DNA from: Natronomonas sp. CBA1123
GTDB taxonomy: Archaea; Halobacteriota; Halobacteria; Halobacteriales; Haloarculaceae
Direction: 5' to 3'
NCBI RefSeq assembly: GCF_009741925.1
Contig: NZ_WPCC01000022.1
Coordinates: forward strand, 1-54,128
DNA: 54,128 bases
The notes below the pieces were generated by a model that did not search any database, had not been told where the DNA came from, and saw nothing but the letters and a program-made list of their open reading frames with translations. Shown here in pieces: positions 37,260-42,613 of the stretch (positions are counted from its first letter, which is position 1; the number at the start of each line of letters is the position of its first letter). Both the position numbers and the translations under genes were made by a program.

Positions 37260-38549
37260 TCAGTCTTCGGGCACGGCCTGGGTCGATTGAGTTGTCGCCG
37301 GTGCCGGTGGTTCGTGCGTTCCGAAGTCGGGATGTGTCTCTTCCATCCAGACGTACACGACGGCCCCGGAGACGAACATCAGGGCCGCAGTCATGTAGAA
37401 CGCCGCTTCGGCGTTCACGAACTCCATCGAGAGGCCGATGAGGATGGCCCCGACCGCATAGCCTGAATCGCGCCACATGCGGTAGACGCCCATCCCGGCC
37501 GACCGCCAACTCGGATGGGCCGCATCGCTCGGGACCGTCATCAGGTTCGGATACAGCAACGCCATTCCAAGCCCGGAGATGGCGGCTAGAACGGCCCACA
37601 GGAGGTACCCCTCGACGAGTACCATCCCAAGCACGCCGGCGCCGGCCAGGAACATACCGGCGATGACCGGTGGGCGCCGGCCGATTCGGTCCGCGAGTCC
37701 GCCCGTGGCTATCTGGAGGAAGTACATCGCGCTGTGGACGCCGACGACGACGCCGACGGCCGCGATGCCCAGCCCCTCGCTCACCAGATACAGGGGGACG
37801 GCAATCCAGAACAGCGTGTCCACGAAGTTCTCGATGTGGCCGGCCTGTGCGGCAGCGAACAGCGTCCGGTCGCCGTAGGTCGCCCGTTTCACCACGTCTT
37901 TGAACGGGAGGTTCGCGTCGTGGTGGTCGTCGTCACCTTCGGCCTGTGCGTACTGGACAGTCTCCTTGATGAGGAAGATAGAGATGAGGAACGCCAGCAC
38001 GACGACGACGGCGAGGAAGTAGAACGGCTCCGGCCGGAGGTTCCACTGGCCCGCGATGAGGCCCGTAATCCAGGCGCCGACGGCGACGCCGGTGTATCCG
38101 AACGACTCGTCGATGCCGACCGCGAGGCCGCGCTGGTCTGGGCCTGCGAGGTCGATTTTCGCGTTAATCGCCATACTCCAGGTCAGCGCCTGGTTGATGC
38201 CCAGCAGGATGTTCCCGACGGTAATCCAGCCCCAGCTGGGGGCGAAGATGAGGATAATAGGCAGGGGGAGTGCCGTCGCCCACCCTGCGACGAGGACGGG
38301 CTTGCGGCCGTAGGACTCACCCCACTTTCCGGCGTAGAGGTTGAGAATCGATTTCACGATTCCGAACGAGACGACGAACGACCCGATGACGAGGAACGAC
38401 TCGACGCCGAGTACGTCCTCTCCCAGCACGGGAACGACGGTGCGTTCAGACCCGATGGTCAACCCGGTCGCGAACACCAACAGGACGTGCAGCGAGAACT
38501 GCCCGAGGTGTTCGCGGATTCCCTGTCTGAGTTCGGTTGTCGTACTCAT
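37260..38549 (-). CDS. Major facilitator superfamily transporter
   Basis: A 429-residue protein with about 12 membrane helices. The MFS loop 2-3 signature is NLYAGKWGESYGRKPVLVAGW (about 70-90), repeated in the second half as GGLADRIGRRPPVIAGM. A His/Asp-rich loop (EGDDDHHDANLPF) separates the two halves. The start codon is three bases after the stop of the rhodanese-MBL gene upstream, so the two are almost certainly co-transcribed. It therefore may export or import a sulfur compound such as sulfite or thiosulfate, which is an inference from context. Confidence 0.85.
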   Translation of the reverse strand: MSTTTELRQGIREHLGQFSLHVLLVFATGLTIGSERTVVPVLGEDVLGVESFLVIGSFVVSFGIVKSILNLYAGKWGESYGRKPVLVAGWATALPLPIILIFAPSWGWITVGNILLGINQALTWSMAINAKIDLAGPDQRGLAVGIDESFGYTGVAVGAWITGLIAGQWNLRPEPFYFLAVVVVLAFLISIFLIKETVQYAQAEGDDDHHDANLPFKDVVKRATYGDRTLFAAAQAGHIENFVDTLFWIAVPLYLVSEGLGIAAVGVVVGVHSAMYFLQIATGGLADRIGRRPPVIAGMFLAGAGVLGMVLVEGYLLWAVLAAISGLGMALLYPNLMTVPSDAAHPSWRSAGMGVYRMWRDSGYAVGAILIGLSMEFVNAEAAFYMTAALMFVSGAVVYVWMEETHPDFGTHEPPAPATTQSTQAVPED

Positions 38550-38552
38550 CGA

Positions 38553-39665
38553 TTACTCGGCGGCGCAGTTGTTCGGCCCCAGTTCCAGTTCGGCCAGTTG
38601 GGTTTCGGGAACCGACTCCTGTCCCACGTTCGTCCGCTTGACGCGCTCGAAGTTCGGGGGATGGTCCGGGATGTCCGAGGCGAGTTCCTCGATGAACGCC
38701 TCGCGGTCGCGGCCGAGGTCCTCGTTTCGGTCTCTGACCTCCCCGAGGGTTGCGGTCACCGGTGGTTCGGGAGAGCCGGGGTCGTGTGCTGGTAAGACGA
38801 GTGCGTCCTCCGGCCGGTCGAGCAACCGCTGGAGGCTCTCGTAGAGCGTCGCTGCGTTCCCCTCGACGTCGGAGTCTTCGATGCCTGCTTCGACGCCGAG
38901 TTCGACGCGGCCGACGCTGTCGTGGAACAGCGTATCGCCCGTGAGCAGTGCCACCCCTTCGACGTCGAAGGAGACGCTTCCTTCGCTGTGTCCCGGCGTG
39001 TGGATGACTTCGATGTCGAGGTGGCCGACGGTCATGCGTCGTCCGTCTTCGAGTGGCGTCGCGTCGAGAGCGAGAGCGTCCTTCGAGTGGAGGTAGTAGG
39101 GCACGCCGTGTCGGTCGGCGAGTTCCGATGCGCCGGAGACGTGGTCGGCGTGGGCGTGCGTATCGAAGACGCCGACGAGGTCCGCGTCGTACGCCTCGAG
39201 AATCGCGTCGTACTCCTCGAGGTAGTGTGAGGGGTCGAAGACGGCGGCCTCGCCGTCCGAAACGAGGACGTGGGCGAGACAGCCCTTCCCCGGCCGTGCG
39301 ACTTGCACGAGCGTGCCCTCGATGTCGACCGGGACTTCCGCGTGCCGGTGGACACGGCTCCAGCCGTTCATCCCGTCGGTGAGCGTCTTCGCATCGTACC
39401 CCATCTCCTCGAGGACCTGGGTTGCGGTGTCGGCGACGATGCCCGCATTACAGACGGTCGCCACCTCCCTGTCTTCCGGGAGATCTTCGAGGACAGCCGC
39501 TGCAGCGTCGGGGTCGTCGGTCAACTCCTCGTACACGTCGACGTTGACGCTGTCCGGTACGTGCCACTCCTCGTACTCCGCTTCGTGGCGAATGTCGAGT
39601 ACGAGCAAGTCGTCTTCATCGGCCTGTAACCGTTCTCCGAGTTCTTCGGGTGAAATCTCCGCCAT
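38553..39665 (-). CDS. Rhodanese-MBL fusion, persulfide dioxygenase-like
   Basis: A 370-residue protein. Residues 1-110 are a rhodanese domain with active-site C72 in ATVCNAGIVADT. Residues from about 112 are an ETHE1-type MBL domain with FDTHAHADHVSGA (H170, H172, D174, H175), VIHTPGHSEGSVSF (H226) and LLTGDTLFHDSVGR (D244). ETHE1/CstB-type enzymes oxidise persulfides to sulfite and pass sulfane sulfur to or from a rhodanese. The order here is rhodanese first, opposite to CstB. It heads an operon with the MFS gene and is divergent from an HTH_10 regulator. A TATA-like box is at 39694-39699. Confidence 0.88.
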   Translation of the reverse strand: MAEISPEELGERLQADEDDLLVLDIRHEAEYEEWHVPDSVNVDVYEELTDDPDAAAAVLEDLPEDREVATVCNAGIVADTATQVLEEMGYDAKTLTDGMNGWSRVHRHAEVPVDIEGTLVQVARPGKGCLAHVLVSDGEAAVFDPSHYLEEYDAILEAYDADLVGVFDTHAHADHVSGASELADRHGVPYYLHSKDALALDATPLEDGRRMTVGHLDIEVIHTPGHSEGSVSFDVEGVALLTGDTLFHDSVGRVELGVEAGIEDSDVEGNAATLYESLQRLLDRPEDALVLPAHDPGSPEPPVTATLGEVRDRNEDLGRDREAFIEELASDIPDHPPNFERVKRTNVGQESVPETQLAELELGPNNCAAE

Positions 39666-39693
39666 CAGTGGTCTGTCTTATGAGGGGTGTCTG

Positions 39694-39699
39694 AATATA
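39694..39699 (-). promoter_or_regulatory. TATA-like box for the rhodanese-MBL/MFS operon
   Basis: The minus strand reads TATATT, 29-34 bases before the ATG at 39665, ideal for a leaderless transcript. Confidence 0.5.
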
Positions 39700-39704
39700 G
39701 TGAC

Positions 39705-39722
39705 TGCCGGACATGACCGGCA
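39705..39722. promoter_or_regulatory. Palindromic operator candidate between divergent promoters
   Basis: TGCCGG-ACATGA-CCGGCA: perfect 6-base arms with a 6-base spacer. It lies between the minus-strand TATA (39694-39699) and the plus-strand TATA (39725-39731), so it is just upstream of both promoters. That is where an activator of the HTH_10 (Bat) family would be expected to bind and control both the operon and its own gene. Confidence 0.5.
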
Positions 39723-39724
39723 CC

Positions 39725-39731
39725 GATAATA
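39725..39731 (+). promoter_or_regulatory. TATA-like box for the HTH_10 regulator gene
   Basis: GATAATA lies 24-30 bases before the ATG at 39755. Confidence 0.45.
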
Positions 39732-39754
39732 ACCTCTAGCTCGAACGTGTCCAC

Positions 39755-40489
39755 ATGAGTCTGTACGAGGCCTCCTTTCGGGTCAAACACGAGTGTCCGT
39801 ATCGAGAGATATCCGAACGCTACCCGGACCTTACGATTCGTGAGTGGTACCTGAACGACTGCCAGGTCATCGAAATCACGGCTCCGGGGTCGCCGACCGA
39901 GGACCTACTCGAGGAAATCGACGAACTGGGGACGGTGCTCCACGAGTCAATCGACGAGTCCGGGCTCCACGTCGTCACCCAGTCGTGTCTCTGTTCGCTG
40001 GAGGACTCCATCATCGAGCGGTTCGAGTCGTACAACAGCCTGTATCAGCCGCCGACGATTCACCGTCAGGGCTGGGAGCATTACACGGTTATCGCGTTCG
40101 ACGAGGGCGACGTTCGAGACCTCCTCCAAGATTTGGAGGCCGACCGGGACATCGAGGTCCTCTCGAAGACCGCGATTACCGAACAGCGGATTCCCCACAG
40201 TATGCTCGCACCGGTCGACCAGCTGTTCGAGGCGGTGACCGAACGGCAGCTGGCGGCGCTTCGGCTGGCTCTCGAGAGCGGCTACTACGAACAGCCCCGG
40301 AAGACGTCGCTCCGGGAGTTGGCGGACCGAACCAGCGTCGCCCGTTCGACCTACGAAGAACACCTCCGGAAGGCGGAGAACAAACTGCTCACGAACGCGG
40401 GGCAGTTCCTGCGATTGGTCACCGCGACCTCGACGGCGGACCCGTTGGACGTGGAGGGACGCCGACGGAACGAACAGCCCGCCGACTGA
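39755..40489 (+). CDS. HTH_10 (bacterio-opsin-activator type) transcriptional regulator
   Basis: A 244-residue protein. The C-terminal HTH_10 domain (about 155-218) reads VTERQLAALRLALESGYYEQPRKTSLRELADRTSVARSTYEEHLRKAENKLL, the Bat-type signature. The N-terminal half is a sensor-like alpha/beta region with cysteines at about 14 (KHECPYREISERYPDL), 36 (LNDCQVIEI) and a CLC pair (VVTQSCLCSLEDS). It is divergent from the persulfide-oxidation operon with a palindrome between. It probably senses persulfide, sulfite or thiol redox state through these Cys and controls that operon; this is inference from context. The length is typical. Confidence 0.85.
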   Translation: MSLYEASFRVKHECPYREISERYPDLTIREWYLNDCQVIEITAPGSPTEDLLEEIDELGTVLHESIDESGLHVVTQSCLCSLEDSIIERFESYNSLYQPPTIHRQGWEHYTVIAFDEGDVRDLLQDLEADRDIEVLSKTAITEQRIPHSMLAPVDQLFEAVTERQLAALRLALESGYYEQPRKTSLRELADRTSVARSTYEEHLRKAENKLLTNAGQFLRLVTATSTADPLDVEGRRRNEQPAD

Positions 40490-40546: not shown

Positions 40547-42613
40547 ATGACCGACCCTGCCCCGTCGCTCGACAGGCGAACGGTGCTCGAAGCGCTAGCC
40601 GGCGCCGGGGCGATGTCGATAGCCGGCTGTTCGGCACTCGAATCCGAATCCGACGACCCGACGACCACGATGGACGGCGAGACGGCCCGTGAGTTGGCCG
40701 TACAGTACGCGCCGACGCTGTATTTCGACACCTACGAGAAGTGGTTCCCGACGGACCCCCGGTCCTACGAAGTCGAACGCGATGGAGAAACGGTCGTCGA
40801 CGGGTTCGAAGCCTTCGACGGCTACACCCGGCGGTTCAAGGAGGCCGAGACGCCACCGGACCCGACGGTGTTCTTCAACGTCGTCCAGTACGAGGAGTCC
40901 CCGCTTGCGGTCGTCCAGTACTGGCAGTACGGCGCCTTCGACCAGTTCACGACGAACTTTCACTGGCACGACTGGGAGGTGTTGCACGTCTTCGTCGACA
41001 CGGAGACCGACACCCCGCAACTGTACGTCGCCAGTTCCCACTCCCGGAAGATACCGAACAACGAGTTTCTCGACCCCGACCGGGAGATGGTCCCCCGTGT
41101 GCTCTCGGAGTTGGGTTCACACTCCAGTGCGCTGTCGGTCAACGACGTTCCCGACCGATTCCAACGCTTCCCCATCGGCGAAACGTTCGCCGACATCACC
41201 AACAGTGCGATAGAGGGCATCGAGGACATCGAGGAGATACCGGTCGCCTACGGCTTGCCCCGCGACGAGGGGTCGGCGCTGCCGTACCTCGTGCCGGAAC
41301 TCGACGGCGAGCCGATTTACGAACACGAGCGACTGCCGTCGGTCGAACGGTCGGATTTGGTCGACGAATCGCTGACGATACGGTCGCTGGACGCGCTGAC
41401 TTCCCCGCCGGAGGAGCTACCGGAACGCAGTACGGGACTCGTCTTCGAACACGTCGACAGAGGGAGGGAGGACGCCGATGTCGAGTACGAACTCGTCCCG
41501 TCGATCGAACTCGAACACATCGAGGCGTTCACCGGGCCGCAGTTGAGCTTCGAGTTCGACGTTCCGCAGTTCGCCGAGGACGCCGTCGCTGGTCACATCA
41601 CCACGACGGGTCTGCCGTGGGAACAGCCCCGATACGACAACCCGGCAGCCGACATCACCGAACCAAATCACAGGGTGGCGCTTGCGGACCGCTACGACGC
41701 CATCGGCGAGGCGGCGCCGGTTCACACCCTCGTCGCGAGAGTCACCGAAGCAGTCTCCGACGAGGAGGCACCGGACGGCGAGGGGGTGACGACCGAGCAG
41801 TCCTCGACGGAGGCGTTCGCGTTGGTCGAAAGCGACCCCGAAGCGGTTCCGACGTTCAGCGGATACGTCGTGGCCCAAGATATCCCGGAGGGCGAGCATC
41901 GATTTACGGTCAACGGTGCGGGACTTACCCCCCACAGCGAGGCAGTGTCGGTGAGCGGCGAGGCCGGCACGACGATGGCCGGCGTCGACGGCGAGATTCC
42001 GCTCGTCGCCCGCGAGAACGCGACGAAACTCGAAATCGACGCGGAGGGAACCGACGCCGACCTCACCGGCGTCGCCGTCGAGGACGACTTCGGCGGACGG
42101 CTGTACGACGCCCCGGTTTCGGGCCGCGACGCGGTGTACGTCCACCGTGGCGGCGCCTACACGACGGAGGTCCGCGACAGCGACGGCGCACTCGGCGCCT
42201 TTCGGGTCAACCCCGGCGAGGAGTCGTCGGTCCGAATCGACCGCCCGCGAACCGGAAAGGCGTCGCTCGCGATGTTCCTCGCGAACATCTCCGAGGAGAC
42301 TGCCGAAGAACTGTCCGAACTCGATGACGATGACGATATCGGCGGGGGGTCGGTCAACGCCATCGGTGGACTCGCACAGGCGCTGTCGTCGGTCGGAGAC
42401 GCCGCCCGCCGGGCAGCCGAACAGGCCGAAAGCGGAAACCGCGGTGCTGCCGACCGGAACATCGACAGCGTCATTTCGTTGCTCGAACAGGTCGAGACTC
42501 GATTGGAGGGCGCACGCGGGTCGCTTCCCGACGACATCGCACGCGCCGTCGAGCTGCGACTTGAGCAGGCCCGCCGTCGCTCCGAGCAGGCGAAAGCAGA
42601 AGAGAAGCTCTGA
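40547..42613 (+). CDS. Large Tat lipoprotein with NLP/Vps62-like HDWE motif
   Basis: A 688-residue protein. It begins with a short N-terminus, RR (10-11) and lipobox IAGC (Cys 28), so it is an exported lipoprotein. The first domain has YAPTLYFDTYEKWFPTDP (54-71), VVQYWQYGAFDQF and FHWHDWEVLHVFVD, with HDWE at 141-144, then LYVASSHSRKIPNNEF. 'HDWE' near a Trp-rich strand recalls the GHRHDWE box of NPP1-like toxins and the DWE of Vps62-type proteins. A beta-rich middle follows, then a helical C-terminal region (about 590-688) of Glu/Ala/Arg-rich coiled coil. The role is unknown. Confidence 0.7.
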   Translation: MTDPAPSLDRRTVLEALAGAGAMSIAGCSALESESDDPTTTMDGETARELAVQYAPTLYFDTYEKWFPTDPRSYEVERDGETVVDGFEAFDGYTRRFKEAETPPDPTVFFNVVQYEESPLAVVQYWQYGAFDQFTTNFHWHDWEVLHVFVDTETDTPQLYVASSHSRKIPNNEFLDPDREMVPRVLSELGSHSSALSVNDVPDRFQRFPIGETFADITNSAIEGIEDIEEIPVAYGLPRDEGSALPYLVPELDGEPIYEHERLPSVERSDLVDESLTIRSLDALTSPPEELPERSTGLVFEHVDRGREDADVEYELVPSIELEHIEAFTGPQLSFEFDVPQFAEDAVAGHITTTGLPWEQPRYDNPAADITEPNHRVALADRYDAIGEAAPVHTLVARVTEAVSDEEAPDGEGVTTEQSSTEAFALVESDPEAVPTFSGYVVAQDIPEGEHRFTVNGAGLTPHSEAVSVSGEAGTTMAGVDGEIPLVARENATKLEIDAEGTDADLTGVAVEDDFGGRLYDAPVSGRDAVYVHRGGAYTTEVRDSDGALGAFRVNPGEESSVRIDRPRTGKASLAMFLANISEETAEELSELDDDDDIGGGSVNAIGGLAQALSSVGDAARRAAEQAESGNRGAADRNIDSVISLLEQVETRLEGARGSLPDDIARAVELRLEQARRRSEQAKAEEKL

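Follow-up and report, generated by a model that had tools for sequence, protein, structure and literature searches.

A conserved palindrome between an HTH_10 regulator gene and a rhodanese-MBL/MFS operon as the likely control point of a haloarchaeal response to reactive sulfur

The locus described here raises the question of what controls two transcription units that diverge from a short intergenic gap, whether one site serves both, and to which signal they respond. It lies in a 54,128-nucleotide stretch of Natronomonas sp. CBA1123 (NCBI RefSeq assembly GCF_009741925.1, contig NZ_WPCC01000022.1), hereafter the window; the nearest named relative of this genome is N. gomsonensis, with a 97% identical regulator. 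An initial annotation had described an operon of an MFS transporter and a rhodanese-MBL fusion, divergent from an HTH_10 regulator across an 89-bp gap, with a perfect palindrome between two TATA boxes, and all these elements were found in place, as follows.

37260-38549, minus strand: MFS transporter, 429 aa, second gene of the operon (Pfam MFS_1)
38553-39665, minus strand: rhodanese-MBL fusion, 370 aa, probable persulfide dioxygenase/sulfurtransferase (Pfam Rhodanese and Lactamase_B)
39669, minus strand: predicted transcription start of the MBL/MFS operon, from spacing; a conserved A, 4 nt before the ATG (53/66 loci)
39679-39680, minus strand: conserved TA, probable -10 (WW) element of the MBL promoter (61/66 and 60/66 loci)
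39694-39699, minus strand: TATA box TATATT of the rhodanese-MBL/MFS promoter, ~31 nt before the ATG
39705-39722, no strand: putative palindromic operator TGCCGGACATGACCGGCA, dyad of 8/9 pairs with core CATG, conserved in sequence in 66 non-redundant loci
39726-39731, plus strand: TATA box ATAATA of the regulator promoter, centre 26.5 nt before the ATG, leaderless spacing
39744-39745, plus strand: probable -10 (WW) element of the regulator promoter, from A/T-enriched columns
39755-40489, plus strand: regulator, 244 aa (Pfam HVO_A0563_N and HTH_10)

The two operon genes are separated by 3 bp (MFS start at 38549, MBL stop at 38553), and the gap between the MBL and regulator genes spans 39666-39754 (89 bp). 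A predicted protein of 688 aa with a signal- or lipobox-like start adjoins the regulator (40547-42613, plus strand) and is found in 4 compared loci; a Pfam search with it gave no match, and no further sulfur gene adjoining the unit was seen within the window.

Orthologs of the regulator were searched in 146 genomes of the family, 48 of which matched at E<=1e-20 (about 30 true orthologs), and in a sample of the class, where they were found in 116 of 391 genomes from ten family groups at E<=1e-30. We took 79 named loci for comparison and computed the site columns on 66 non-redundant loci (<92% regulator identity). The initial annotation had made its reading depend on the palindrome being conserved in orthologous loci, and conserved it is: the 18 site columns average 1.63 bits versus 0.42 in the remaining gap, and over 2016 locus pairs, two Haladaptatus loci having been left out, pairwise identity is 87.6% in the site, 47.1% at fourfold-degenerate positions of the regulator gene and 39.1% in the rest of the gap, with the site above the synonymous positions in every one of the pairs. 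In the oriented loci the distance between the site and the regulator ATG is nearly always 31-32 nt and rarely 33-37 nt. Judged from these alignments, the 18-bp site is kept almost unchanged across about ten haloarchaeal families.

The palindrome alone is mildly unusual, with 12 matches at up to two mismatches in the window versus 5.15 expected and one of them exact, and a G+C-rich window that yields several near matches might produce such a sequence by chance; its near-fixed spacing from the ATG and a conservation far above that of synonymous sites make this reading hardly conceivable. The window site is the sole exact copy found in its own genome, and across the 146 family genomes the exact pattern occurs at the regulator locus, the remainder being isolated matches elsewhere. 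One exact site in genome G072 (L061), within a reading frame that resembles a response regulator, was taken as chance, and an upstream match of 14.6 bits (L203) coincides with the beginning of a different predicted gene. A relaxed regulon search, allowing two mismatches, returned 6-14 sites per genome versus 3-7 for the reversed control; only the locus site was clearly shared, the other near matches were not conserved, and a wider regulon is not claimed.

The original formula TGCCGG-N6-CCGGCA was correct as to the exact palindrome but not as to a free N6, the six central bases being conserved around a CATG core. The full site reads TGCCGG-aCATGa-CCGGCA, with variants to TGCCRGYTATARCYGGCA that carry paired changes, and the dyad therefore comprises 8 of 9 pairs rather than 6 of 6 flanking a random spacer. 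A symmetric double change of C8/G11 to T8/A11 occurs in 8 loci, and the copies on the MBL side in Haladaptatus and Natrialba, TGCCAGCTATAACTGGCA, are palindromic throughout; these paired symmetric changes give it the look of a site for a two-fold symmetric protein.

The presence of the site depends on that of the regulator. In the 19 MFS loci without an orthologous regulator no site was found within 1.6 kb upstream, the best score being 9.3 bits versus a median of 30.3 bits in true members, and these regulator-less, site-less loci include MFS copies 90-93% identical to that of the window; likewise, a locus with the MFS gene and only a 30%-identical HTH_10 relative (L236) has no site along its whole length. 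Furthermore, where the two promoters have become separated (4 loci; L205, L208, L209 and L210), a second copy of the site lies directly before the MBL gene. The separating DNA is a cupin gene in Salinadaptatus (L205), a single-domain rhodanese gene in Haladaptatus (L208 and L209) and holds no clear gene in Natrialba (L210). On the Haladaptatus plasmids (L208, L209) this rhodanese gene occupies -419 to -90 from the regulator, in the same direction, between operator and regulator. Since the site is absent without the regulator and present in one copy per promoter where the promoters lie apart, the palindrome is most likely the operator of the HTH_10 regulator, serving both sides as had been proposed at the outset, and the doubled sites are the best evidence that a single site normally serves both. 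Haloarchaea contain many HTH proteins and the regulator has 36 matches in its own genome, so that another regulator might bind the palindrome, with the HTH_10 gene a mere neighbour; this is improbable, as the site tracks the presence and absence of the regulator even beside a 93%-identical MFS gene, and site and regulator change in parallel in deep clades.

Both TATA boxes reach ~1.0 bits over the 66 non-redundant loci, TTAATT/TTAATC being the commonest forms of the regulator-side box elsewhere. The expectation of one TATA box per direction at leaderless spacing was borne out for the two boxes and for the spacing on the regulator side, but not for the spacing on the MBL side. There, because the box lies ~31 nt from the ATG and the bases TA (39679-39680) and A (39669) that follow it are conserved, the transcript is more likely to carry a leader of ~4 nt than to have none. 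Haloarchaeal promoters are characterized by the elements TTWT, CGAAA (BRE) and WW at -10 (PMC4983044); TATA and WW elements are present in both promoters here, and the BRE columns read GCACCG and AGYRCC, not CGAAA. The ends of the palindrome overlap the BRE positions of both promoters, which would also suit a promoter or DNA/RNA structure feature, such as a BRE variant or a hairpin, instead of an operator. We consider this very improbable: both predicted starts (leaderless or with a 4-nt leader) lie outside the dyad, which would therefore be transcribed from neither promoter, its 18 conserved bases exceed any BRE, and it is restricted to regulator-bearing loci.

The regulator had been called Bat-type, a name that fits its HTH_10 DNA-binding domain (PF04967, E 4.8e-20) but not its sensor part, as Pfam detected none of the PAS/GAF domains of Bat proper and only HVO_A0563_N precedes the HTH. 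In this protein H12, C14, C36 and C80 are invariant among 103 orthologs and C78 is kept in 102 of them, and C95, the fifth cysteine of most orthologs, is a serine in the window protein. L039, the nearest paralog in the genome of the window and of the same Pfam family, lacks the cysteine set HxCP-C-CxC, and this absence, together with the near-perfect conservation among orthologs, suggests that C14, C36, C78 and C80 sense the signal. A PDB sequence search with the regulator found no match, its AlphaFold model was middling (pLDDT 76, pTM 0.56), and the one weak Foldseek hit, 5m86 (Ta1207; E 2.5e-4, TM 0.36), was set aside for function. A fragment at a contig end (L040, G000:C55:33548-33727), 78% identical to regulator residues 131-193, appears to be a second regulator copy, cut or decayed. 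A MAG labelled Thaumarchaeota encodes a full-length relative (L217, 37% identical) in which HDCP and CxC are kept and C36 is not, and no MFS or MBL gene was found nearby; the HVO_A0563_N-type sensor domain may predate the unit seen in haloarchaea.

Among 75 regulator loci the MFS gene is intact in 74 and the rhodanese-MBL gene in 56; the corresponding figures in the non-redundant set are 56/56 versus 41/56 (Fisher p = 2e-5, a guide only, the loci being related). In 19 of the 75 loci the rhodanese-MBL gene has been deleted or has decayed while regulator, site and MFS remain, and remnants such as those of L143, which correspond to residues 1-43 and 282-369, show internal deletion. The notion of a self-contained persulfide-oxidation module is thus not supported, since an enzyme lost in a quarter of the loci argues against persulfide oxidation as the constant task; the MFS transporter appears to be the constant target of the unit, and the rhodanese-MBL a frequent member that can be replaced. 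The genome of the window encodes four other full-length paralogs of the rhodanese-MBL, 38-43% identical (L002-L005, on G000 contigs C4, C9, C59 and C40), which could stand in for it; L002, L004 and L005 end in GPNNC or GPNRC. Among the loci that lack the regulator, the MFS gene directly follows a different rhodanese-MBL paralog in L219, L225, L228, L229, L231, L235 and L237, so that the MFS/rhodanese-MBL pairing has recurred. In L220, L222 and L234 the regulator-less MFS gene has a PHO4-family permease as its neighbour, and the island around them also holds TauE, DrsE_2 and a TrmB-type regulator, possibly an alternative control of the same transporter. The MFS protein resembles NorA, too weakly for its substrate to be read from homology.

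The case for sulfur starts from the enzyme. The closest solved structures of the rhodanese-MBL (PDB 3tp9, 3r2u, 4ysb, 5ve3 and 4chl) are rhodanese-MBL fusions and persulfide dioxygenases, and its invariant residues over 48 orthologs are C72 (the rhodanese cysteine), H170, H172, D174, H175, H226, D244, R253, H294 and C367. These contain a putative ETHE1-type iron site (H170, H226, D244) with its second sphere (H172, D174, H175, H294). Against this reading, the HxHxDH motif is also common to glyoxalase II and Zn hydrolases. By motif, the counterparts in the Acidithiobacillus caldus enzyme AcPDO are H57, H113 and D130 for iron and H59, D61, H62 and H171 for the second sphere (PMC6060420); of its essential pair R139/D141 the arginine is kept (R253) and, as a further point against, the aspartate, essential in AcPDO, is a glutamate (E255) in all orthologs. 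C367, present in 48/48 orthologs, matches the C-terminal cysteine (C224 in AcPDO, C247 in ETHE1), an equivalence by motif only. Altogether the rhodanese-MBL is a probable persulfide dioxygenase/sulfurtransferase. Haloarchaea carry many rhodanese-MBL and sulfur-trafficking genes. Of 77 regulator loci, 20 have TauE, DsrE, DrsE_2, TusA, YeeE-like Sulf_transp or a second rhodanese-MBL within ~6-7 kb, and at least one such neighbour is present in 10 of 19 regulator-less MFS loci, both counts standing without a genome-wide baseline.

Sulfur is, on these sequence grounds, the best-supported theme of the unit. The regulator might instead be a metal or Fe-S/oxygen sensor in the style of NarO and DmsR, the MFS exporting a non-sulfur substrate and the rhodanese-MBL being a frequent passenger: the cysteines and H12 could bind metal, NarO is described as an oxygen sensor and both NarO and DmsR also lack PAS/GAF (PMC11218638), and the MBL gene is lost in 19/75 loci. 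We regard this as unlikely, given that sulfur-trafficking neighbours recur, that the MFS of regulator-less loci is found paired with other rhodanese-MBL paralogs, and that two Haladaptatus loci have a rhodanese as their inserted gene.

The locus is probably a haloarchaeal reactive-sulfur response unit, in which a regulator dimer on the single 18-bp dyad governs both the regulator gene itself and the rhodanese-MBL/MFS operon. Bound between the back-to-back promoters, with the site centre ~42 nt before the predicted start of the regulator and ~45 nt before that of the operon, the dimer would control both sides jointly, and the outer ends of the dyad would replace both BREs. A promoter that lacks a proper BRE usually depends on assistance, and the HTH_10 proteins studied so far (Bat, NarO, DmsR) are activators; we therefore lean towards the regulator as an activator of both sides, which would bring TFB/TBP onto two BRE-poor promoters. 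A site over both BREs fits repression equally well, and a repressor that shuts TFB/TBP out of both promoters is a lesser but substantial possibility. The HVO_A0563_N cysteines would sense the signal, either by persulfide/disulfide chemistry or by way of a metal that they bind. The proposed task of the rhodanese-MBL is to transfer sulfane sulfur to a thiol and to convert the resulting persulfide into sulfite by oxidation; sulfite, or a sulfur oxyanion akin to it, would then leave the cell through the MFS.

In the open-access literature, subscription papers lying outside the search, we found no description of the regulator, its operator or a haloarchaeal sulfane-sulfur regulator, and the operator is likely the control point of a so far undescribed haloarchaeal response to reactive sulfur. 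More tentatively, the HVO_A0563_N domain of this ortholog group might represent a new archaeal class of sulfane-sulfur sensor, unrelated to ArsR/CsoR/FisR, with one dyad switching two divergent promoters. The locus offers a concrete candidate regulator, the exact sequence of its operator and two promoters as targets, in genera that can be cultured and are partly genetically tractable (for example Haloferax prahovense, Halorubrum and Natrinema). Many archaeal promoters lie back to back, and a dyad in place of two BREs is for that reason a clean case of one archaeal factor facing two initiation complexes.

Among known systems, the BigR operon of Xylella and Agrobacterium combines the BigR repressor, the DUF442-ETHE1 sulfurtransferase/dioxygenase Blh and a TauE-type sulfite exporter, and, like the present unit, brings together at one locus a cysteine-bearing regulator, an exporter and a fusion of sulfurtransferase and persulfide dioxygenase (PMC5823870), export by the MFS being our prediction. 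BigR, however, is a winged-helix repressor at the -10 region, whereas the haloarchaeal regulator is an HTH_10 protein with HVO_A0563_N; here the dyad is shared between divergent TATA promoters, the MFS replaces TauE, and the rhodanese lies N-terminal to the MBL. CstR/CstB of S. aureus likewise joins a persulfide sensor to a persulfide dioxygenase-rhodanese fusion, but CstR is a CsoR-type repressor. In CstB, which we take to be the MBL-rhodanese protein 3r2u among the closest solved structures, the MBL precedes the rhodanese. With the haloarchaeal NarO, DmsR and Bat the regulator shares its HTH_10 type and presumably activation, and with NarO and DmsR the lack of PAS/GAF (PMC11218638); these proteins serve other pathways, NarO regulating denitrification (PMC11218638), and Bat has PAS/GAF (PMC3184054). 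The enzyme, of predicted activity, resembles ETHE1-type persulfide dioxygenases (Type I-III) in its putative iron ligands (H, H, D), second-sphere H/D/H, arginine and C-terminal cysteine, and differs by a glutamate at the D141 equivalent and an N-terminal rhodanese. The locus thus holds what a BigR- or CstR-type module holds, namely a regulator, a sulfurtransferase/dioxygenase (absent in 19/75 loci) and a presumed exporter under one operator, and Pfam assigns its regulator to HVO_A0563_N and HTH_10, not to an ArsR or CsoR type. Because that regulator comes from another family, the unit is not a member of the BigR/Blh/TauE or CstR/CstB modules, which it functionally resembles.
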